Source: a virus. From it: a stretch of DNA of 28,966 nucleotides. Numbering within the stretch: position 1 is the stretch's first letter; each line of letters starts with the position of its first letter. Location: the IMG/VR virus record IMGVR_UViG_3300046724_000183, positions 1 to 28,966 of that record. One strand, given 5' to 3'. A program made the translations under genes and the position numbers. The notes under the pieces are model-generated. The model was given only the letters and a program-made list of their open reading frames with translations. It did no database searches and was not told the DNA's origin. Of this stretch, positions 1-22,980 are shown piece after piece.

Positions 1-849
1 GTAGTGCTTCGGGGTAGGCTTCATTCCCGGTATCGGAGAGTTCTCGTCAAAACCCTTCATAATGGTCTGAGTGATGTGCTTGATCGCCAGGGACTCGCGC
101 CTCGTGTCGATCGCCTTGTCCGGTTTATCGAGCGTATTGAAGCGCCCCAGGACCATGCCGTAGCCCTTCGAGGTCAGGCTTCCGTCATTCTCCATCTTTA
201 GAATTTGCCGTGCGCTCGTGATCTGGCCGTTTGCTACCGCGTCAAGCGCGGCTGTGTATCCTGGCCCAAGGTTCATCATGTTCTCGCCGAATGCGAGAGA
301 CTGCATGGCGCCCTCGAGGTGCTGCTTGGTCTCGCCGTATTCCAGCCGCGGGTCCTCCCACATGGTTTTCGTCAGCATCTTCACGAGCTGCTGCTTCCTG
401 CCCAAGTCCATCTTCGGGTCGTCACGGAGCTGTTGTACCGCGTGCGAGTATGAGGCAACTCCGGTCTTGATGGCCTCTTCACGCGCCTTCCCGTTGATGC
501 CGTCCATGATCGCGTCGTTGGCGTACTCGCGCTTGAGGTGCGCCTTTGTTTTCATCCGCATTTCGGGATCGGTGATCGAATCTGCGGCGCGGAGAGCGTT
601 CTGTTGCTGCTCCGGCGAATATACGCCTGGCGTGGGCTCCGGTATTGGCGGAACGACTTGCTTGGGCTGCACGGTGGGGAGTTGCGGCTCCGGAGCCGGC
701 GTCTCCGTTGCCGGCGCATTTGCCTCTTTCGGCTTGAGATCCTTAACCTCGTCCTCGCTGAACCCGTTCTCCCTCATCTGTTTATAGAGGGTCGGGGGCG
801 GCGTGCCTGGATCCGGCGCGGACGTGCTAGGCTGTGGAGTGCCGTCCAT
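1..849 (-). CDS. Putative ejection/internal virion protein, N-terminal part (leaves window)
   Basis: An unbroken minus-strand frame runs from ATG at 849 to the window edge, giving 283 residues with no stop. The ATG overlaps the stop of the preceding gene (TAATG), so the two are translationally coupled. The first ~95 residues are rich in Pro, Glu and Ala (for example TPAPEPQLP). The rest looks alpha-helical and charged, with stretches such as YSPEQQQNALRAADSITDP and KTKAHLKREYANDAI. No catalytic motif is visible in this part. In T7-like gene order the last and largest internal core (ejectosome) protein follows the gp14- and gp15-type genes, and this gene sits in that position. The ejection role rests on position and helical character only. 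The C-terminal part, where a lytic enzyme domain could lie, is outside the window. Confidence 0.8.
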   Translation of the reverse strand, partial: MDGTPQPSTSAPDPGTPPPTLYKQMRENGFSEDEVKDLKPKEANAPATETPAPEPQLPTVQPKQVVPPIPEPTPGVYSPEQQQNALRAADSITDPEMRMKTKAHLKREYANDAIMDGINGKAREEAIKTGVASYSHAVQQLRDDPKMDLGRKQQLVKMLTKTMWEDPRLEYGETKQHLEGAMQSLAFGENMMNLGPGYTAALDAVANGQITSARQILKMENDGSLTSKGYGMVLGRFNTLDKPDKAIDTRRESLAIKHITQTIMKGFDENSPIPGMKPTPKHY

Positions 850-2462
850 TATTGCCCCGCTACCTGTGTGCCCTTGCCGCTCCATTCGAAGTGCATCGGG
901 TCGCGCGACGAGCCCGACCAATCGCCACCCCAAATCAAACCATATTTGGCGGCGATCTCGCGCACATTCGCCGGCATGTTACTCGGCCCGCCGCGCTGCT
1001 GTGGGTTCTCGTTCGGGTTGACATCGATGGCGTTGCCGAAAGCGTGCTCGGAATAGGTGTTGGTGCCGAATATCTTGCGATTAGAGTATCCGCCGATATC
1101 CTTTATCTTATAGCCGCTGTCGGTGAGCTCTTTCAGGAAGCCCGCGAAGTGCGGCGCGGCGGCCTCGTTCACCTCTATCGTGTGTCCCTGGCTGTCGCCG
1201 ATCGTCGTTCGGCCTTGTGGTACGCCTTGGCGCCTGGCGGCTCCGGAGCTGAAAAAGTTTCTGTCCGTGTGAGCATCTACGCTCCGCCGTAGAGCCGCGT
1301 CGATCGCGCCCTGGCCTTCGCTCGTGGGTTTTGCCTCCGCCGCGAACGGCGTGCCAGGCGGATAGTCCTGCGACGTTTTCTGCTGAGTTGCTGCGTGACG
1401 CTTGATCCAATCCGCCCGGCTTTCTCCAGGGAGACGTGCCGTTGGATTCGACACCGGCGGCGAGCTCGGCGATCCATTTAGCTTCTCTTTTGCCTCGCGT
1501 ACCAGGCGATCGGGCTCCGACTCTCCTGGACGCGAAACCGCTGTCCCCGGCCGCAACGGTACGACATTATCCGGTGCCGGCTTCCCGCTTACAGTACGGT
1601 AGGTGTCCTCGCCCAAGACGGCCTTGTTGGCGTCCCAAATGCCCTGCCGCACCACGGGATCCGGTTGCGCGAAACCCTTCCGAAGCACGTCCGATTTCTG
1701 CTCGCTGGCGATCTCGGTCGCCCTTGCGCGGTATTTCTCGGCTAGTTGGGTGTAGCGGGGCCCTAGATCCTTCCTATGCGCTTCGACATAGGCGGCTCCT
1801 TCCGGGGCGTTGTGGACAAACATAGCCTCCGCGGCGCGGGCGTAAACGTAGGAGTCAGAGTTCTTTAGCGCCTGTTGCATTATGCCGGGCTGCGCCACAT
1901 TGCCCTCGGCTTGAATCTGCTTAACCGTAGCGTCCCTAGCCTTGTGGATCGCCTGGTCGACCGCTTCCGGATTGTTGTAGTTGTTGGCCGCGTCGTCGCC
2001 GGCCTGCGAGCTACTGGCCTCGTTCGTCTCCTTCGTGAACCTCTGCGCCTGTTGGACCGCGTGGGTCGATATCTTTCCGCCCAAGGTCCGGTACTGGTAG
2101 GGGCGGAATGCGGTATCAAACTGGTGCGCCAGGTTGGCCGGAAGTTGGCTGCGGTACTTATCGGCAATCTGTTCGAGGTTGTCTTTGGTTTTTTGTTCGG
2201 CCTCAAGCGCCTCGGCACCCTGCAATTTCGAAAACTTCTCGGTCTCCGCCTCCGCCTCTTTGATAGCGTTATTGAGCACGCTATCCTTCTGGATCTCGCC
2301 CCATGTATCGGCGGCCTTCTCTACGCCCTGGCCGAATTGCTGCAATCCCTGCGCGATGTGCCCGCCGAATGCGCCAGGTCTTACGTCAAGGTGGAAGTAA
2401 TCGGACGGCGGTGCTGCCGCCGGCTCGTTGGTAGGAAAGGGTTTGTAGGGAACCTGGGCGAT
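849..2462 (-). CDS. Internal virion/ejection protein with C-terminal M15 peptidase domain; apparent ATC start
   Basis: A 537-residue product if translation starts at ATC 2462. The first conventional start in frame is TTG at 2345, which gives 498 residues. ATC is preferred because AGGAG (2469-2473) lies six bases upstream, whereas TTG has no ribosome site and the 39 extra codons read as ordinary protein (AQVPYKPFPTNEP, then DYFHLDVRPGAFGGHIAQG). Residues 1-350 are helical and rich in Gln, Ala and Glu, like phage internal core proteins. The C-terminus (about 410-530) is a D,D-peptidase-like M15 domain: SEHAFGNAIDVN carries H473 and D480, and DPMHFEW carries H524, the expected zinc ligands. It probably travels in the virion and cuts peptidoglycan cross-links during DNA entry. 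A lysis role is also possible, because no endolysin is seen in the window. Confidence 0.88.
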   Translation of the reverse strand: MAQVPYKPFPTNEPAAAPPSDYFHLDVRPGAFGGHIAQGLQQFGQGVEKAADTWGEIQKDSVLNNAIKEAEAETEKFSKLQGAEALEAEQKTKDNLEQIADKYRSQLPANLAHQFDTAFRPYQYRTLGGKISTHAVQQAQRFTKETNEASSSQAGDDAANNYNNPEAVDQAIHKARDATVKQIQAEGNVAQPGIMQQALKNSDSYVYARAAEAMFVHNAPEGAAYVEAHRKDLGPRYTQLAEKYRARATEIASEQKSDVLRKGFAQPDPVVRQGIWDANKAVLGEDTYRTVSGKPAPDNVVPLRPGTAVSRPGESEPDRLVREAKEKLNGSPSSPPVSNPTARLPGESRADWIKRHAATQQKTSQDYPPGTPFAAEAKPTSEGQGAIDAALRRSVDAHTDRNFFSSGAARRQGVPQGRTTIGDSQGHTIEVNEAAAPHFAGFLKELTDSGYKIKDIGGYSNRKIFGTNTYSEHAFGNAIDVNPNENPQQRGGPSNMPANVREIAAKYGLIWGGDWSGSSRDPMHFEWSGKGTQVAGQ

Positions 2463-2468
2463 GGGAGG

Positions 2469-2982: not shown

Positions 2983-3522
2983 TCAGTCCGCCCCTATTTG
3001 TCGATAAGCCATAACCTTAGCGTATCCGGTCCCAAGAGGCAGCCGCACTTCTGTTTCCTTTAATTGCCGCGCTATTTCTTTTCGGCCAAAGCGCGACGAC
3101 GCAGGCAACACATACTCGCCGTCTGTCTCCGGCACAAATCCCATGAAGATAGCGAAGCGTTCGCTCGCCTCGTCGCCCTCGAGAATCGTAGTAATCAGGA
3201 AGCGTTTTGTTTGCATGATCTCTGCTATTTGCCGGCGCATAAGCTTGACCATCGCTACCGGGTATTTCGTGGCAGCATTAGAGAATGCAAGCCAAATCAG
3301 ACCATACGAGGATAGCGCCGTGCCGGTCACGCCGCCGATCGAGGCAATCTTGCCATCGATGAACCATGCTCTCTTGTAGGTGGACTCGTCGAATGCGGCG
3401 CGGAGCTCGCGGTGCGAATTGAGACCAACCATCGCTACCGCCTTTTGATGCTCGAGGCGGAGAACCCGGCTCATCGCGCCGCAATGCCATGATTTCCCTT
3501 CTACGAGCTCAAACTTCGGCAT
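2983..3522 (-). CDS. Gp13-family phage protein with GNAT acetyltransferase-like fold
   Basis: 179 residues. The sequence has the layout of the DUF2833/gp13 phage family: an N-terminal MSRVLRLEHQKA stretch, a central HRELRAAFDESTYKRAWFIDG segment, then IASIGGVTG and GLIWLAFS strands, and a late EASERFAIFMGFVPE segment like the end of a GNAT fold. In T7 the gp13 protein is needed for virion assembly and is linked to the internal core. Whether this member acetylates anything is unknown. Its ATG overlaps the TAA of the glycine-rich nozzle gene (TAATG), and it precedes the gp14-like gene, so it begins the ejection-protein block. Confidence 0.8.
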   Translation of the reverse strand: MPKFELVEGKSWHCGAMSRVLRLEHQKAVAMVGLNSHRELRAAFDESTYKRAWFIDGKIASIGGVTGTALSSYGLIWLAFSNAATKYPVAMVKLMRRQIAEIMQTKRFLITTILEGDEASERFAIFMGFVPETDGEYVLPASSRFGRKEIARQLKETEVRLPLGTGYAKVMAYRQIGAD

Positions 3523-6488
3523 TACTTATCCCCCTTACCCCGTCGCTGCGGCGCCTCTTGCGCTGGCTTATCGCCGCTAAGGATCTCAGGAACGTAATCG
3601 AGCACCTGTAGCGGCAATGGGTTGAGCTGCTGCACGGCAACCTGGCCCCTCGTATTGAACCCGGACGGGATCGGGACGCGAACATCTCCGGTGAATAGTG
3701 GAGTGGCCGGGCTGTTGAACGGCGCTATCGCATGGGTAGGTGCAGGCACCATGTTCTGCCATTCTGGCGCAAGCTGCTGCGGACTCTGCACGGATCCGTC
3801 CGGCTGGTTGCCGCCGATCTCGAATGCCGCGGATTGCTCTATGCGGACCGTCACCTCCGCGACCTTCTTGCGCTGTCCTTGCACGGTTGGCTCGCCAGCA
3901 TCCAGGTAGGTGCTCTGCAATTGAGCCTGGAAGCCCAATCCTACAATGATCGCCGATGCCGGCTTCGCTAGGGTAACGATGCCGTCTGCCGGCACAATGG
4001 TCGGAGGAATAACCTGTCCATCCGCCAGGCCGGTGATTTCAAAACCAATGAGCTGCGGCAGATAAAAGGATGATATCGGCTCGGTCATAGTCCAACTGCC
4101 GCTCAATTGCGTAATCACCTGGTCCGTATTGATCGGGTCGTCGGGCTGGACGCGCACAATCGGCGAGATCATTTGCGCGATCACGGTCTGCGTATCGACG
4201 AAGCTTGTAATTTCCGCCACGCCGTAGCCGGCGCGGATCACGCTGCCAACATCGCCGCTAGAAAAGACTGCTGCCGACGCAACGAATGTGACCGAGTTGT
4301 CCAGTGTAACGGTTGCACTAGCCCCGCTGCCCGTATTCTCAGGATCATTGAACACGAGGTTGGGAAAGACATAGCCGGATCCGGCCGGCGAGAACGCGAT
4401 CGCCGTGATGACCCCGGAGACAATAGTCAGGTTCACGAGGGCTCCGGCGCCTGGGCCCAAGCCGTTGCCGTCGACTAACTCTGCGGTTGTCGCGCTGGAA
4501 TAACCCTGGCCGCCTACCAGGTCGGTAACACCCGTTGGAATGCCGGACCCGACAGCCGAGCTTGCAATCAGGTTGGCGTCCGGAGTCGGCCGCGCCAGCG
4601 TAAACCCGCAATCAACGCACCAACAGTTTTCGACCGTGGGCCACACCCGGTTATCAAGGCGCTCGATGATGAAGCCGGCCGGGGGAATGACGGGTGGCGG
4701 AGGCGGAGCTACGGCGTCATAGGTTACGATAATTGCTCCCTGTGAGCCCGCGCCGACAACGGCAAGCTGAAACGTGAAAACGGAACAGCCGCCGCTACCG
4801 GCGCCGTATAGTCCGGCATTCCCGGCGGTTACGACGCCAGAGTTACCGTTTGATCTATTGCCGCCGCCGCCGCCACCGGCGCCCTGTGTACCTAGCTCTG
4901 TCCCATTAGCACCATTTCCGGCGGCAGTGCCCACGCCGTCTCCGGCCGTTCCCCCAATTCCGCCACCACCACCGTCACCGTCGCCGCCGACTGTTGTGCT
5001 TGGCGGGCTGGCACCTCCTGGGCTGTCTCCGCCGTTAGTGCCGGGACCTAGTGGCCCGGCGCCACCACCGCCGCCAGTGCCGATGTTTCCGTTGCCTGGA
5101 CCGATTGTGTTTTCAACTTCTCCACCTCGCCCTCCGGCATAAATTAGATCTCCGATCGACCCGGTGTTGCCACCGGCGCCGCCTGGAATAGCTGGCGGCG
5201 GTATGAGCTGTATGCGCTGTTGCCAAGCGCCTCCGCCGCTGCCGCCCTTTGCCAGCACGAGCGTTGGAGACAAAAGGAATGTGTCGCCGCCGGATGCCCC
5301 TAGATGGCGCGTTTGATTGTGAATGACGTCGGGCGCGAGGGCCGTGTAAGCAAATCCGCCGGCGCCGATGAAATATGGAACGGTCTGCCCCGGAGTAAGT
5401 GGTACGTTATTAGCCTGGGCATACGCGCCACCACCGCCACCTGCCGCTCCAAAGTCCTGCACGTTACAGCCTGATCCGGCTCCCGCCCCGCCACCCCCGA
5501 TGCAGCCGATGGAATTGTTGTCAGGATCAAAATCGGACGGGACCGTCCAAAAATTCATTAGGTCGGCACCGCCGCCATTCGTTCCGACAAGAGCATCGTC
5601 GTTATAGGTGCTTACGCCGCTCTCGCCTGGACCGTTAGGCCCGGCCGCGCCGCCGCCGCCGGTAGCCGCCTGCACCTCGAGGCAATTTTGGCTCTCTCCG
5701 CCGTTTCCTCCGGACCACAATGTCGACCCGATGCCTTGGGCCGCGGAGCCACCAGGGCTGGCGGGGATATATGAACTAGGTGGATTTGATCCGCCCGAGC
5801 CATTGGCACCGCCGCCCGCCGAGCCGCCCTTTGCTCCGACACTGGCAATACCGAAGCTCGCGCCGTTGAACCATGTGTCTGTGCCGGCATTCCCGTTTTG
5901 AACAGTCCCGCTTGTAATATTCGTGATTGCGGCGCCGCCGGCCCCCACATTGTAGGCGGCCGTGCCGCCTGGCGTAAGCGTGATGTTTGTCTCTTTGGAA
6001 TAGGCGCCCCCGCCTGCCCCGGTTGCGGTCCCGGTTGGTCCGAAAATAGTTGATGACTTTAGGCAGGCGCCGCCCGATCCGCCGGCTCCTATGCACTCCA
6101 CTGAATTGTTTGCGCTGTTCCAATCGCTAGGGACACTCCAGGATCCGGAACCTACCGTAAGATATAGCGGCCCCACTGGCAGGAGAGATTGCGTGCTGAC
6201 ATAGCGAATAATGATAAGACCGTTACCGCCGGCGCCGCTAATCGCCCCTGGCTGGCTGTTCTTACTCGCGGCGCCTCCGCCCCCACCGCCATACAGGCCG
6301 CCAGCGCCACCATGAACAACCACAAGATTGCCGGAGTATCCGCAGCCACCACCACCGCCACCGGCTCCATGGGAGCCGTCAAACTCGGTCCCGGCCATGC
6401 CGGGGCTAGCCGTGCCCGAGAGGCTACCGGCGCCGCCAGCGCCACCGTTCACTAACGGTAAATCGGTGAGAATAATCTGGACCGTCAT
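3522..6488 (-). CDS. Glycine-rich tail protein carrying the apparent C-terminal part of the tail nozzle
   Basis: 988 residues in two parts. Residues 1-592 are glycine-rich and hold two full repeats (about 117-312 and 314-592) plus an initial half repeat (about 33-98). Each full repeat opens with VPSDW/VPSDF, has a GGGAY turn and LTPG, and the last ends GAIIVTY. A Pro linker (594-603) leads to residues 605-988, which begin FIIERLDNRVWPTVENCWC. In related phages, as I recall the family, a motif like this follows directly after the AVERH segment that ends the neighbouring gene. Residues 630-700 carry GxGY beta repeats. The ATG overlaps the stop of the upstream nozzle gene (ATGA). Probably a tail tip/nozzle component with surface-exposed, possibly receptor-binding, glycine-rich domains. 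Confidence 0.85.
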   Translation of the reverse strand: MTVQIILTDLPLVNGGAGGAGSLSGTASPGMAGTEFDGSHGAGGGGGGCGYSGNLVVVHGGAGGLYGGGGGGAASKNSQPGAISGAGGNGLIIIRYVSTQSLLPVGPLYLTVGSGSWSVPSDWNSANNSVECIGAGGSGGACLKSSTIFGPTGTATGAGGGAYSKETNITLTPGGTAAYNVGAGGAAITNITSGTVQNGNAGTDTWFNGASFGIASVGAKGGSAGGGANGSGGSNPPSSYIPASPGGSAAQGIGSTLWSGGNGGESQNCLEVQAATGGGGAAGPNGPGESGVSTYNDDALVGTNGGGADLMNFWTVPSDFDPDNNSIGCIGGGGAGAGSGCNVQDFGAAGGGGGAYAQANNVPLTPGQTVPYFIGAGGFAYTALAPDVIHNQTRHLGASGGDTFLLSPTLVLAKGGSGGGAWQQRIQLIPPPAIPGGAGGNTGSIGDLIYAGGRGGEVENTIGPGNGNIGTGGGGGAGPLGPGTNGGDSPGGASPPSTTVGGDGDGGGGGIGGTAGDGVGTAAGNGANGTELGTQGAGGGGGGNRSNGNSGVVTAGNAGLYGAGSGGCSVFTFQLAVVGAGSQGAIIVTYDAVAPPPPPVIPPAGFIIERLDNRVWPTVENCWCVDCGFTLARPTPDANLIASSAVGSGIPTGVTDLVGGQGYSSATTAELVDGNGLGPGAGALVNLTIVSGVITAIAFSPAGSGYVFPNLVFNDPENTGSGASATVTLDNSVTFVASAAVFSSGDVGSVIRAGYGVAEITSFVDTQTVIAQMISPIVRVQPDDPINTDQVITQLSGSWTMTEPISSFYLPQLIGFEITGLADGQVIPPTIVPADGIVTLAKPASAIIVGLGFQAQLQSTYLDAGEPTVQGQRKKVAEVTVRIEQSAAFEIGGNQPDGSVQSPQQLAPEWQNMVPAPTHAIAPFNSPATPLFTGDVRVPIPSGFNTRGQVAVQQLNPLPLQVLDYVPEILSGDKPAQEAPQRRGKGDK
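4713..6392 (-). repeat. Two and a half glycine-rich protein repeats inside the tail gene
   Basis: Unit A (6195-6392) is a C-terminal half unit, unit B covers 5553-6140 and unit C covers 4713-5549. Units B and C share VPSD(W/F), NNS(V/I)xCIG, GGGAYxxxxN, LTPGxT and an AGG turn. Units A and C share GTE, GAGGGGGG, AGLYG and an ending LIIIRYV or AIIVTY. The likeness is at protein level; the bases differ at many synonymous sites, so the duplication is not recent. Confidence 0.8.
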
Positions 6489-9319
6489 GCTGGCGCGTGC
6501 CTTTCGACGGCAAAATAGACTGCATCCGCCTTTTGCGCCGGAATATCTCCGAGCTCCGGCGTGGCGATTATAGGCTCAACAACCGACGCAACGCTCCAGA
6601 AATGTCCGTTGGTATCATGCCGCGCCCATCCCGCGACTTGCTGCTGCTTTAGAAAGGTAAGAGACAGTAGAACACCGTCATTGCGGATCGTCCAAATCAG
6701 TTTGAACGGCGTTTCGGCCCATGTGTGTTCCCGCAATGTGTAGTCGTCGAATAGGTGCGAGGAAAAGATCGTAAGGTCGATCGGCTCCGACAAAGCGTAG
6801 AGCTGGTAGGGCAGATCGAAGTAATACGAACCCTTCGACGCCACATAGAGAATATCGTAATTGATCTTAATCGGCGGCAGCAACGGAGAGCACCCACTAA
6901 AGGCAAGAGGCTGCGCTACCTGGCTCGATGGCGAGATCGGTTGCACATTGGTTGCGAAGCTGCCGGCGCCGACCAAGAGCCAGGCCGATAGACCGGTCAT
7001 TGTCAGGAGGCCGGCCGGCATGACCACAAAGAACTGAATGCCATTGACCTGTAGCGACCATGGCGTGCCGGTGATTGCATCCGAGTCGATCGTGGGGATC
7101 CTGGCGTCAAAGTTCTTAAAGGCACCAGGTTGACTCATAAAGTAGGTGTCTGGATTGTTCAGCGTATCGCCGAACACCCTGCGTTGCTGGAAGTAGCTCG
7201 GCACACCAGGATAGGTGCCCGTCTCAGGTCCGATTGTCAGGTGCCCGGTGGCTCCAGCGCCGTCCCCGACAATGCTTAGTGTGTCGCCGGTCACATAGCC
7301 GCCGCCGTTGTCGACAACCAAGAGCGCCACGACGCCGCCGCTGACAATCACCGCTTCTATGATGGCGCCGGTTCCTGCCCCGGAGGTGACGGTGACGGTG
7401 GCAAAGGTGTATCCGCTTCCAGGGTTGTCGATGACCGCACCGATTATCTGCCCGCGGGCAAAAGGATCGCGGTGCAGGGGCGGCACTTGTTGAAAGTCCG
7501 CTATGATATTGCTGTCGACAAATTGATTGCCAAAGGCCGTTCCGGCGTACCCAAAGAGAACGCCGACCGGAACGGGGTTTGCGTGCCCGTAAGACACCTC
7601 GGCTTTATAGATATTATAGGTGACTGCGTCGGCGACTGTCGACCAAGTGACTGTGATGGTCCCTGCGGCGGCAGCAATGTCGACATTCGTTTGCAGGCGC
7701 GCGATTGGCCCCGCCACGCTTTCCGTGCCGTCCTTGGCAACCGCGGTTACACAATACGCATAATTGACGGTCGCGGTGCCGGTCGCCCCTGAATGGTCTA
7801 AGGTTGTCGTTGTAGGTGGGACAATGCTGGCAACTGGAATAACAGGCGTAAACGTCCAACTGGTGTCCGAAAGGCGGGCCAAGTCTTGCGGTGGATACTC
7901 CGTTCCGGTGTCCTGATTGACGCAGCAAAGCGTCATTACGTCGGCGGATTGCGTGAATTTGATCCACTCCAGGTCGGCGTCCGAATAGATCGTCGTCAAA
8001 GTGAAAATGCGCGAAACCGTGCCGCCGGAGGTGTAGGCCGGGAAGCCTGTCGTATCGACCGGATTTCCAAAGACGTCTGCCAGGGAAAATGTAGTCCCCG
8101 TGAGCACGGTTATGATGAAGGTTTGATTATTGAGCTGCGTCATTCCGCCGACGCCGGAAATGAACACCCAATCTCCGGTAACGAAACCGTTGTCTCCGGA
8201 GCTCGATATGACGTTGAACAGGGCGCCTAAGCCAGATCCGCTAGTCGATGCTTGGCCGACCGGATTTGACGGGAATGTCGTATAGACGCCAGGATCGCTA
8301 ACAGTGACGGCGGCCGGGGCCATGATGGCCGATTGGAAGGTAGCTCCGGTCCCGCTGCCGCTTGTCGACCCTTGCGTGAAGGCGTTGCTGGCCGGATTGG
8401 CGCTATAGGTTCCACCGACCGTCACCGCGATCGCGTTGATGCCCATGAGGACGGTTATATTGCAGGCCGCGAGGCCGCCGCCCGTGACCGGCTCCTGGAG
8501 AGGAACCGCTGGATTGGTCGTATAGGATCCTGGATCTATGATTGATCCGACGGATGCCAGGACTCCAGTCCCGTCGATAACCCCGTTCACTTGAAAATGG
8601 ACGCCTGTCCCCGTCGTCCCGACAAGAACAACCGGACCTGGTGTGCCGCCGGTGCCTTGGTCTGCGCCTGGAATCAGAGCAACAGCGATTACTTTTGTCG
8701 TCACCACGGCCACGACTGCGGCAACGCTGTGTGTACCGCCGGCAAGCGTGATCGTATCGCCAGGCGCGTACCCTGGGGAAGATCCTAATTGCGATACATT
8801 GCCAGAACTATTGATGGCGCACGAAAGCAGCGTCGTATCGGTAACGGAGAGCACGGCGGGCGTAGTAAAGACACCGCCGGCGAGCGTGATGGTGTCTCCT
8901 GGAGCATAGGCTGCGAGGATCGAAGTATTGACCGGCGTGGCCGATACCCCGCTACTCGAGCCGCCTGTCGTTACGACGCCTGGATTAGCCTGAGAGACAT
9001 CGACGATGGCAATCGGATTCTCTGTGACTTGGGCCCCATTAGAGATCACGCGCATATAGAAATTGCCGAACTCGAGGATCAATCCCTGATTGATGCTGAA
9101 TTGGAACGGAATAAGCCGCGGAGGGAATGGACGGCCAAATTGCGCGGACCAACCGACGAAGCGCGTACCAGGCCGCGAGTAGGCCCCGCCTTTGTACGAT
9201 GCAAACATATTCCGCATCGTCGACGCTGCTGTGTGCAGCCGCGCGAGATCTTGGCGCCCGAAGAGATTAGGAGCGACTTCGCCCGTAGTGAACGCCGGCT
9301 GCAATACGGGAGTTGCCAC
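6485..9319 (-). CDS. Tail nozzle / tail tubular protein B-like, N-terminal and middle part
   Basis: 944 residues from a GTG start at 9319, with GGGAG nine bases upstream. The N-terminus (LQPAFTTGEVAPNLFGRQDL, then YSRPGTRFV and LIPFQFS) is the hallmark opening of the T7 gp12-like nozzle family, which seals the distal end of the tail tube. Beta-rich insertions follow: two copies of YAPGDTITLAGG (about residues 130-230), several STSGSGxGA units, a segment resembling an FCCH-type domain (LNNQTFIITVLTGTTFSL), a fibronectin-like stretch near 500-580 and a GSGY unit near 620-690. The last part (RRVFGDTLNNPDTYFMSQPG, then HTWAETPFKLIWTIRNDGVLLSLTF) is again nozzle core. It ends abruptly at AVERHAPA, where I expect the core to continue; that continuation seems to lie in the next gene. 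Confidence 0.9.
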   Translation of the reverse strand: MATPVLQPAFTTGEVAPNLFGRQDLARLHTAASTMRNMFASYKGGAYSRPGTRFVGWSAQFGRPFPPRLIPFQFSINQGLILEFGNFYMRVISNGAQVTENPIAIVDVSQANPGVVTTGGSSSGVSATPVNTSILAAYAPGDTITLAGGVFTTPAVLSVTDTTLLSCAINSSGNVSQLGSSPGYAPGDTITLAGGTHSVAAVVAVVTTKVIAVALIPGADQGTGGTPGPVVLVGTTGTGVHFQVNGVIDGTGVLASVGSIIDPGSYTTNPAVPLQEPVTGGGLAACNITVLMGINAIAVTVGGTYSANPASNAFTQGSTSGSGTGATFQSAIMAPAAVTVSDPGVYTTFPSNPVGQASTSGSGLGALFNVISSSGDNGFVTGDWVFISGVGGMTQLNNQTFIITVLTGTTFSLADVFGNPVDTTGFPAYTSGGTVSRIFTLTTIYSDADLEWIKFTQSADVMTLCCVNQDTGTEYPPQDLARLSDTSWTFTPVIPVASIVPPTTTTLDHSGATGTATVNYAYCVTAVAKDGTESVAGPIARLQTNVDIAAAAGTITVTWSTVADAVTYNIYKAEVSYGHANPVPVGVLFGYAGTAFGNQFVDSNIIADFQQVPPLHRDPFARGQIIGAVIDNPGSGYTFATVTVTSGAGTGAIIEAVIVSGGVVALLVVDNGGGYVTGDTLSIVGDGAGATGHLTIGPETGTYPGVPSYFQQRRVFGDTLNNPDTYFMSQPGAFKNFDARIPTIDSDAITGTPWSLQVNGIQFFVVMPAGLLTMTGLSAWLLVGAGSFATNVQPISPSSQVAQPLAFSGCSPLLPPIKINYDILYVASKGSYYFDLPYQLYALSEPIDLTIFSSHLFDDYTLREHTWAETPFKLIWTIRNDGVLLSLTFLKQQQVAGWARHDTNGHFWSVASVVEPIIATPELGDIPAQKADAVYFAVERHAPA

Positions 9320-20074: not shown

Positions 20075-20290
20075 ATGCCACCGGAAGAGACCTGGTTATC
20101 CCGTAAGGCCGCCGCGATGTATCTGACGCGGATCGGCTGCCCCATGACCCACCGCACGCTCGAGAAGGTTGCCAGCAAGAACAACGCCGGCGGCGGGCCT
20201 CCCTTTGTGCGCGCCGGCTGGAAGGCGGTCCGCTACCGCCAGGCTGATCTCGATGCTTGGGCGAAAAAGCGCATGGTGAGGGTAGATTAG
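20075..20290 (+). CDS. Small helix-turn-helix (excisionase/AlpA-like) DNA-binding protein
   Basis: 71 residues from ATG 20075, supported by GAAAGGG nine bases upstream; a GTG at 20057 is in frame but has no ribosome site. WLSRKAAAMYLTRIGCPMTHRTLEKVA resembles the helix-turn-helix of excisionase/AlpA-type proteins, and AVRYRQADLDAWAKKRM matches their usual ending (YRxxDLDAW). It is the first gene of the plus-strand cassette and its stop overlaps the next start (TAGTG). It could regulate the cassette or, in a prophage, assist excision; no integrase is in the window, so regulation is the more economical view. Confidence 0.85.
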   Translation: MPPEETWLSRKAAAMYLTRIGCPMTHRTLEKVASKNNAGGGPPFVRAGWKAVRYRQADLDAWAKKRMVRVD

Positions 20291-21429
20291 TGGCAACCAT
20301 CGGCTTGTCTATGATCGTCAAGAATGAGGAAAAACTCATTCTCCGATGCCTCAAAAGCGTGGCCGCGCTGGCCGATTACGTCCTGATTTCTGACACCGGA
20401 TCGACCGACAGCACGAAAGATATCATCCGGGGGTTCCTGGCCGACCACGATATCGAGGGTAAGATCGTCGACGACCCCTGGATAGACTTCGCCAGTAACC
20501 GTAACCGGGCGCTCTTGGGCCTCAACCAAACCAAGGTTGATTATGCCTTTATGATCGACGCCGACGATGTTCTGGAGCTCGCCGACGGCTTCGACCTGGC
20601 CTCATTCAAGGCCAGAATGACCCGTGATATATACGATATCCCGGTGGTACACGCAGGCGTCCGCCATACCCGACCGCAACTCTTCCGCAACAATGGAAAA
20701 TACCGTTGGATAGGCGTTTTGCACGAATACCTTGAGGCACCACCGACAGCTACGCGCGCAACCGAGCTTGGATTGACGATAAAGGCCAGCATTGAGGGCT
20801 CTCGCAACGCAGATCCGCAAAAATTCCAAAAAGATGCCGAGATTCTAGAAAAAGCCTTAAAAACTGAAAAAACCCCTTATTTGCTGGCTAGATACCAGTT
20901 TTACTTGGCCCAAAGCTATCGGGACTGCATGAATTACGAAAAGGCCCTACAAAACTACCTAATTTGTTCAAAAATGGGGTTTTGGGACCAACAAGTGTAC
21001 GTTTCTCTGTTTGAGGCTATCCGTTGTTGCACAAGACTTGGCGGAGAGTTTGAATTTAACACCGCCTGTGCGGCTTTCATTCGTGCCCAGGAGACGTTGC
21101 CGTCCCGCGCCGAAGCCTGTCACGCCATGGCATTTCTCTGCCGAAAACTAGGCAGAAACAAGCAAGGTATGGATTCCGCGTGCCGCGGCATGGATCTGGC
21201 TATACCGCAGGGGCTCTTTATCGAGCCCTGGATCTACCATTACGGCGTGCGCGACGAGTTTGCCGTCAACGCCTATTGGTCCGGACACTATCTTGAAAGC
21301 CTGCAAGCCAACCTGAAATTACTGGCCGGGAAAAATACGCCGACAGACATGATCGAGCGCCTGGCGAACAATGCCATGGCTTCGCTAGTAAAACTCGAGC
21401 CCCGTCTTAACCTCGTATATTCGGATTAG
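20290..21429 (+). CDS. Family 2 glycosyltransferase with TPR-like C-terminus
   Basis: 379 residues from GTG 20290, which overlaps the previous stop and has GAGGG seven bases upstream; a longer ATG start at 20257 lies inside the previous gene. GT-A fold signatures: IGLSMIVKNEE, LISDTGSTDST (35-42) binding the sugar nucleotide, and IDADD (89-93), the metal-binding DxD. GVLHEYLE follows, as in related enzymes. Residues 200-370 are helical with TPR-like pairs (LARYQFYLAQSYRDCMNYEKAL). Bases 20810-21060 are clearly more AT-rich than neighbouring genes, a sign of different origin. The sugar and acceptor are unknown; likely targets are host LPS or capsule, or a virion protein. Confidence 0.9.
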   Translation: MATIGLSMIVKNEEKLILRCLKSVAALADYVLISDTGSTDSTKDIIRGFLADHDIEGKIVDDPWIDFASNRNRALLGLNQTKVDYAFMIDADDVLELADGFDLASFKARMTRDIYDIPVVHAGVRHTRPQLFRNNGKYRWIGVLHEYLEAPPTATRATELGLTIKASIEGSRNADPQKFQKDAEILEKALKTEKTPYLLARYQFYLAQSYRDCMNYEKALQNYLICSKMGFWDQQVYVSLFEAIRCCTRLGGEFEFNTACAAFIRAQETLPSRAEACHAMAFLCRKLGRNKQGMDSACRGMDLAIPQGLFIEPWIYHYGVRDEFAVNAYWSGHYLESLQANLKLLAGKNTPTDMIERLANNAMASLVKLEPRLNLVYSD

Positions 21430-21432
21430 CCC

Positions 21433-22980
21433 ATGCACGAAACTTCTAAGGCGGTGCAACGCCGCCTGCACGACTCCAACTTCATTACCCGCTACTTCCG
21501 CGGCAACGGGATCGATATCGGCGCCGGCAATGACCCGCTAGGCCAGTATATCGAGCTATTTCCGCTCATGGAGAGCTGCCTGTCCTACGATCGCGAGGAC
21601 GGCGACGCCCAAGACATGAAGGGCTGCAAGGAAGGACAATTCGACTTTGTCCATGCCTCCCACTGTCTCGAGGATCTTCACGACCCGCTAACGGGCCTGC
21701 GAAACTGGCTCAAGATACTAAAGCCTGGCGGGCACCTGATCGTGACCGTGCCTGACGAGGATATGTACGAGCAGGGGGTTTTCCCGAGCACCTTCAATTC
21801 CGATCACAAGGGCACGTTCACGGTTTTCAAGCCTAATTCCTGGAGCCCCAACTCCCACAACCTCCTATCGATGATCCTTCTGTTGGGAGATGTCGCCGAC
21901 CTCATCAAGATTGAGCAATTAACCGGCACCCACCGCTACGGCCTGGAGCGCCAGGACCAGACGCGGACGCCTATCGGCGAGTCGGCGATCGAGTTTGTCA
22001 TCCGCAAGAGGGGCAAGAGCGAAGCGAAGCTTGGCGATCGCCGCCTGACCGCGACGCAGGTTAAGCTATCCGAAAGACGTAAGATCGCCCTGCACCGGCC
22101 AGGAGCTATTGGCGATATCATTATGACGCTGGCGCTGGTCCCGTTGCTCAAGCAAAAGCACCCGGACCACGACATTCATTATTTCTGCAACGCTACGCTT
22201 GGGACAAGCCTGCAACGCCTGATGAAACAGGCCGGAATCGACGGCGGCTTTCCCGCGGAAGCCCTGGAGCAGAGGCAACGAGACTACGAAAAGGTCATCA
22301 ATCTGATCGGCTATCCGCTGCAAGATGGCTACCCGTACAAGCCCATGAGAAAGCATTTGATCCAGTATTTTGCAGCCGAAATGGGGATCGATCTTGACTA
22401 CATTCCTCACCTCTTACTGCAACCTAGCCAAAATCTTCCAGAAGTGCTGAAACTACCCTCACGTTATGCGACCATCCATCCGCAGGCCGGGTGGTCGGCT
22501 TATAAGAATTGGCCGACGGAACGATGGGAAGAGGTGGTCGCGAAGCGTCCGGACATTTCATTTTATCAGATCGGCAGCGCGACAGACAGAAAGGTTCTCA
22601 ATGCTGATCCTACATTCATGGGAATGCCCCTGAATGTCTCGATCGACCTAATGGCGGGGGCAAGCCTTCATGTCGGGGTCGACTCGTGGACAAACCATCT
22701 GACCAACATCGCATGGGGAGTGCGCGGCTTCACGCCCGCCATTATTCTGTGGGGATCGACCCAGGCTACGGCCGCAGGCTACCCGCGCAATACAAATATA
22801 AGCCTAGGGCTCGAGTGTCAGCCTTGCTTCCGCGAGGATCCTAAAATCTCTCGGATGCCGCTCGGCCCGTGTATCAATCCGCCCGGACAGGTTTACGAAG
22901 AGCCGAAGCACGCCTGCATGGCCGGGATCACGATCGACAACGTCCTCTTGGCGATAGAAAAGGTGTGGCCCAATGGCTGA
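21433..22980 (+). CDS. Methyltransferase-family 9 glycosyltransferase fusion protein
   Basis: 515 residues with two enzymes in one chain. Residues 1-195: class I SAM-dependent methyltransferase, with GIDIGAGNDPLG (26-37, motif I), FDFVHASHCLEDL (70-82), and LKPGGHLIVTVPDED (96-110). Residues 215-515: ADP-heptose:LPS heptosyltransferase-like GT9, with RPGAIGDIIMTLALVPLL (222-239), HPQAGWSAYKNWPTERW (349-365) and LHVGVDSWTNHL (412-423). Four cysteines (462, 465, 480, 495) in a CxxC...C...C array are common in one GT9 branch. It starts three bases after the family 2 gene and overlaps the next gene by eight bases. The two enzymes probably modify one glycan in sequence. Substrate unknown. Confidence 0.9.
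   Translation: MHETSKAVQRRLHDSNFITRYFRGNGIDIGAGNDPLGQYIELFPLMESCLSYDREDGDAQDMKGCKEGQFDFVHASHCLEDLHDPLTGLRNWLKILKPGGHLIVTVPDEDMYEQGVFPSTFNSDHKGTFTVFKPNSWSPNSHNLLSMILLLGDVADLIKIEQLTGTHRYGLERQDQTRTPIGESAIEFVIRKRGKSEAKLGDRRLTATQVKLSERRKIALHRPGAIGDIIMTLALVPLLKQKHPDHDIHYFCNATLGTSLQRLMKQAGIDGGFPAEALEQRQRDYEKVINLIGYPLQDGYPYKPMRKHLIQYFAAEMGIDLDYIPHLLLQPSQNLPEVLKLPSRYATIHPQAGWSAYKNWPTERWEEVVAKRPDISFYQIGSATDRKVLNADPTFMGMPLNVSIDLMAGASLHVGVDSWTNHLTNIAWGVRGFTPAIILWGSTQATAAGYPRNTNISLGLECQPCFREDPKISRMPLGPCINPPGQVYEEPKHACMAGITIDNVLLAIEKVWPNG

Follow-up and report, generated by a model that had tools for sequence, protein, structure and literature searches.

In the viral DNA analysed here (the window; 28,966 nucleotides of IMG/VR record IMGVR_UViG_3300046724_000183), an M15-domain gene on the minus strand appears to start truly at an AUC codon, ATC at 2462–2460, an attenuated start that would be rescued by a Shine-Dalgarno (SD) sequence and by coupling to the stop codon upstream; we give this reading a probability of about 0.7. 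Across the junction, the minus strand reads ...ACGACC TAA TAG GAG CCT CCC ATC GCC CAG GTT.... The upstream internal virion protein gene ends at the TAA of the tandem stops TAA TAG (2472–2477), with 12 nt between that TAA and the ATC. Next comes AGGAG (2469–2473), which shares bases with the TAG and lies 6 nt before the ATC, and from there the frame is open for 537 codons to the TAA at 851–849. The first-pass annotation had described an ATC at 2462, six bases after AGGAG, in frame with the long ORF and past the previous stop, all of which can be read directly. It had also called the ribosome site ideal; AGGAG is present, but the adjective is overstated, since, of the 34 gene starts tabulated by hand in the window (chosen ORFs, some overlapping and doubtful), 10 score better than its computed duplex energy of -6.5 kcal/mol. 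The pattern AGGAG-N6-ATC occurs once in the window against 0.68 expected in shuffles of the same composition, which is within chance, and it is the homology of the N-terminus that carries the significance. All other starts of the 34 are ATG, GTG or TTG, so that no genome-wide AUH use by the phage is seen among them, and the predicted RNA structure across the start is nothing unusual (z -1.06).

The M15 gene (849–2462, minus strand) encodes a C-terminal Peptidase_M15_4 domain at residues 466–527 (882–1067; PF13539, E=1.8e-15), and its protein matches phrog_1044 (E 4.1e-7), while the N-terminal part shows weak similarity to proteins of the Bbp11/Carin1 gp33 type (tblastn E 1e-3 to 7e-3). The gene sits after tail and internal virion protein genes on the same strand: immediately upstream lies a T7 gp14-like internal virion protein gene (2475–2981; phrog_418, ATG start), preceded by a second internal virion protein gene (2983–3522; phrog_308, ATG start) that served as a control gene. 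The downstream gene (1–849, minus strand) begins with an ATG at 849–847 that overlaps the TAA of the M15 gene (TAATG), and it is cut by the window end. Elsewhere, the window has matches to two other structural families, a T7-type major head protein (phrog_212) and a head-tail connector (phrog_332). Because of the M15 domain, the neighbours from internal virion and tail families and a gene order like that of Carin1 and BPP-1, the product is probably an internal virion protein of the ejection type that bears a wall-cutting domain, and it would be carried in the virion and injected into the host.

Two known phages, Bordetella phage BPP-1 (with bbp11) and Cobetia phage Carin1 (with gp33, a putative lysozyme of its virion gene cassette), share the gene order of the window, in which a tail (nozzle) gene is followed by one or two genes for small internal proteins, then by a long gene with a cell-wall domain and by a very long gene. 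Both proteins resemble the M15 protein in the N-terminal region, although the similarity is only 22–27% over part of the protein; Bbp11 has a transglycosylase domain by annotation whereas the window protein has an M15 peptidase, and bbp11 and gp33 begin with ATG. The likeness to T7 gp14-gp15-gp16 rests on the neighbouring gp14-like gene and the internal virion protein families. No isolated phage with a close homolog was found.

Where the protein begins is best judged from its relatives. In all 12 divergent syntenic homologs (L014–L018, L025–L027 and L029–L032), an ATG or GTG either aligns with the ATC or precedes it by no more than four codons, and from the residue aligned with the ATC onward the alignment runs without a break. 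The homologs share a conserved N-terminal block, (M)AxVPY...P...FGG, and three more remote annotated phage proteins start with MAKIP, MPRVP and MVKVP at the corresponding place. The N-terminus read from the ATC is thus, by this alignment, the homologous N-terminus of the family. Of the differences between the window and the related contig L002 in codons 2–39, 13 are synonymous and 2 nonsynonymous (pS 0.46, pN 0.02), a ratio that resembles that of the next 81 codons; since synonymous differences predominate, these codons evolve as coding sequence under purifying selection and are, on this comparison, translated as part of the M15 protein. Rare ATC initiation, as the first-pass annotation had proposed, is supported by the homologous N-termini together with the occurrence of the ATC in four contigs. 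The possibility, also raised there, that the homologs begin at the downstream TTG met the opposite outcome in the alignment, as their N-termini reach the ATC.

That TTG (2343–2345, codon 40) is the first conventional in-frame start; ahead of it, back to the last stop, the M15 frame holds no ATG, GTG or TTG. Translation from it, or from another internal conventional codon, would leave 2462 to 2348 untranslated, and we consider this very improbable. It is a conventional codon, and it is also found at codon 40 in L001 and L002; however, it has no SD match of at least 4 bases at 3–12 nt, in line with the earlier description of a TTG without a ribosome site. A start there would drop 39 codons, the lost residues include the conserved block, and the synonymous excess lies in precisely this stretch. 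Furthermore, an internal start is not conserved, because L045 lacks a conventional start after codon 4 until codon 133, L025 lacks one after codon 1 until codon 112 and L034 has none in the first 66. As the homologs reach this point with ATG or GTG, the ATC is most simply explained as a derived change of an ancestral ATG or GTG that has become established in natural populations.

The same ATC is present in L001, L002 and L003, which together with the window make four contigs from different IMG/VR records and of different haplotypes, with identities to the window over the shared stretch of 99.83%, 96.6% and 99.96%, respectively. Of the two origins suggested initially for the codon, base error or mutation of ATG, the first is excluded to the extent that assemblies can show. 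That sequencing or assembly turned an ATG into ATC is conceivable in that assemblies do differ by single bases (over 11.7 kb, L035 shows 19 mismatches to the window and a single gap), but the ATC is agreed on by four contigs that differ elsewhere, and three further lineages have ATC or ATA at this codon; because three other metagenome contigs contain it, such an error is very unlikely, and even less credible than an internal start.

Over 11.7 kb, the contig of L001 has 19 mismatches to the window and a single gap, which is the loss of one C from the SD–ATC spacer (window 2463–2465). The deletion puts the M15 gene out of frame with the gp14-like gene, while the SD and the ATC are kept, at a spacing of 5 nt. 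This bears on a further possibility, to which we assign the smallest probability of all, namely that ribosomes read through TAA TAG and so join the M15 protein to the gp14-like product. The two genes do share a frame in the window; nevertheless, two consecutive stops separate them, the L001 deletion breaks the frame link, the gp14-like gene of L045, followed onward in its matched frame, ends in another frame (TAA 4502–4504, by eye), and the SD and the homologous N-terminus explain the M15 start without a fusion.

The sequence of L002 before about codon 12 is almost that of the window, with one difference in the gp14-like gene. Near codon 12 (window 2420–2430), the comparison switches sharply to about 46% synonymous difference, and judged from this pattern the switch is a recombination junction. 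Since the upstream block of L002 is near-identical and L001 and L003 are 99.8–99.96% identical to the window, the ATCs of these contigs are best read as one evolutionary event present in several haplotypes.

A survey of 5' ends was performed with the gp14-like neighbour gene as bait, supplemented by loci from other homology and pattern searches; 80 candidate relatives from the bait search were kept, and 417 reported candidates lie outside the survey. Among the relatives listed, the ejection gene yielded 92 distinct 5' ends, for which the script called 70 ATG, 12 GTG, 5 TTG, 3 ATC and 2 ATA. In the count of AUH starts, L045 was entered as ATC according to its aligned first residue, though the script chose the GTG at codon 4, and L109 (ATC by script) was left out as ambiguous. 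An AUH codon at the homologous position is present in 5 of the 92 rows listed (the window, L002, L034, L045 and L121), corresponding to four lineages, with ATC in the window and L045 and ATA in L034 and L121, as L002 repeats the window. The ATA of L034 stands 5 nt behind AGGAGG; this locus was first met in a pattern scan biased toward AUH and was also recovered in the unbiased survey as L106. In L121, a contig of a Hyphomicrobiales MAG, the ATA follows GGAGG at 5 nt, and an in-frame TTG and GTG lie 6–9 codons upstream, within the SD region. An extra ORF between the gp14-like and ejection genes of this contig (L121:4515–5026), HNH-endonuclease-like by eye only, overlaps the ATA; the start codon may have changed when this ORF arrived.

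By the same method, 188 control 5' ends were collected among the relatives listed (95 gp14-like and 93 gp308-like), and these contain no clear AUH start (0/188) and one candidate, the ATT of the L129 gp14-like gene, with the control rows L109 and L119 being ambiguous. The L129 start (AGGAGG-5 nt-ATT) is plausible, and 10 codons ahead of it there is also an in-frame ATG. Because of this candidate, AUH starts may not be special to the ejection gene. Among 34 tail-gene 5' ends, there is one odd case, L108, which is either a CTG start or a frameshift. Under a strict criterion, in which no conventional start occurs from 30 codons upstream to 8 downstream, the counts are 3/92 rows for the ejection gene (two lineages), 0/95 for the gp14-like gene, 0/93 for the gp308-like gene and 1/34 for the tail gene. 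Counted by lineage, Fisher's test gives p 0.011 for 4/91 versus 0/188 and p 0.040 for 4/91 versus 1/188; it gives p 0.033 without the window lineage (3/90 versus 0/188) and p 0.058 against the gp308-like gene alone (0/93). The recurrence of AUH on the ejection gene (p 0.01–0.04) is thus suggestive only, because the test is small and was designed after the window had been seen, the hypothesis having been formed on it. A search for prophages across 397 genomes from the order to which G001 belongs gave 33 with a gp14-like match, and these held no new AUH start. Matches L037, L039 and L040 from a GGAG..ATH..(A[QE]VPY) scan were rejected as chance matches, as were the ATT rows L201, L223 and L224. 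In L060, the gp14-like gene has an in-frame stop within the matched stretch.

The computed SD pairing at the four AUH sites is -6.5, -9.3, -10.6 and -11.2 kcal/mol, stronger than at the 87 conventional starts of the ejection gene (Mann-Whitney p 0.018). The same tendency is described for GUG and UUG starts in gene-wide surveys (PMC5622118). In a tree of 87 loci, L121 groups with L090 (ATG) and L034 with L197 (which has an ATG nearby), so that the AUH starts of L034 and L121 are independent by tree; the window falls outside the pair of L045 (ATC) and L025 (GTG), with L026 (ATG) next. L045, at 36% identity, shares the ATC, but its grouping is with a GTG relative. From these groupings, AUH appears to have arisen three or four times, and the window and L045 may or may not share one origin.

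For initiation at AUC 2462, we propose that the AGGAG would position the 30S subunit on the codon, and that ribosomes finishing the gp14-like gene 12 nt away would supply initiation by coupling; such closeness of an upstream stop favours coupling, a principle treated in PMC2268962. The initiator fMet-tRNA would pair with AU, mismatch the third base and start despite the discrimination by IF3 against third-base mismatched pairs that PMC10158994 and PMC5472188 describe. The rate would perhaps be a tenth of the AUG rate or less. In Staphylococcus aureus, AUU and AUA starts with a strong SD gave about 10% of AUG, and for one gene up to 30% in rich medium (PMC13009471); weak third-base pairs in vitro gave reduced or no product (PMC10158994). 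AUC with CAU is a weak pair for IF3, so that M15 output could be too low to matter.

One of the closest known systems is infC, the gene of IF3, with an AUU start in E. coli and an ATC start in Streptomyces; its output is restrained by IF3 (PMC5472188). The M15 gene is like infC in its AUH start, at which fMet would initiate on a third-base mismatch; unlike infC, an autoregulated housekeeping gene, it belongs to the virion genes of a phage, and no feedback on it is known. It is likewise comparable to ccpN (AUA) and cvfC1 (AUU) of S. aureus, in which an AUH codon stands behind a strong SD; however, those starts are measured and conserved across species (PMC13009471), whereas the M15 AUC is deduced from sequence and conserved only within a single group of near-identical phages and, perhaps independently, in L045. 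Relatives of these phages occur in Hyphomicrobiales assemblies. In Hyphomicrobiales infC, an AUH codon lies where the start is expected, 14–17 codons before a conserved motif, in all 18 parsed loci (30 were fetched and 12 were not parsed by the expression), and 4 of the 18 also have a nearby ATG.

By analogy with experiments on other genes, the AUC would lower the M15 protein compared with the remaining virion genes on this transcript, and the downstream gene, joined by TAATG, would probably be lowered too. Keeping the M15 protein low relative to its neighbours would suit an ejection protein with a peptidoglycan-cutting domain that is wanted in few copies. The T7 ejection proteins are present in few copies, with four gp16 in the core, and gp16 is a low-copy protein that also has a peptidoglycan-cutting domain (PMC8954989); a low M15 output would therefore fit. 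Weak starts on the ejection gene may thus be a way to make little of the protein. The broader proposal, that the ejection gene of these uncultured, podovirus-like phages repeatedly evolves AUH (AUC, AUA) with a strong SD, selected for few copies per virion and synthesis sensitive to the IF3 level of the host, is speculative and in our view unlikely.

Alternatively, AUC is the start and is non-adaptive, a slightly harmful or neutral mutation tolerated by means of the SD and coupling; this we regard as a serious contender, if somewhat short of even odds. The ATC of the window is one recent event that spread with the upstream block, and its sister lineage has GTG; the ATA of L121 would be a side effect of the ORF inserted just upstream, which overlaps it; and the enrichment of AUH is weak. 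The recurrence of AUH in three or four lineages on the ejection gene and the stronger SDs at these sites speak against it. Gene finders limited to ATG, GTG and TTG would begin the M15 protein 39 residues late, and they would fare worse on L034, with no conventional start in the first 66 codons; a Neisseria gene with an ATG-to-ATC change was missed by automatic annotation (PMC10210955). If AUH does recur on the ejection gene, it provides a natural series of start codons on one virion gene, which could link initiation rate, virion stoichiometry and infectivity. To our knowledge, few AUH genes in bacteria are well described, and the open-licence PMC literature searched yielded no phage virion gene reported to start with AUH.

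Two further features of the window lie outside the M15 gene. ORFs of 944 and 988 aa (3522–9319, with an ATGA overlap) match successive parts of the tail family phrog_376 (712 positions), as if a tail protein had been split and enlarged there, and the first of them also has an E1_FCCH-like domain. At 20257–22980, two plus-strand genes stand amid minus-strand virion genes, one of which, with a TTG start, is glycosyltransferase-like (phrog_13126).
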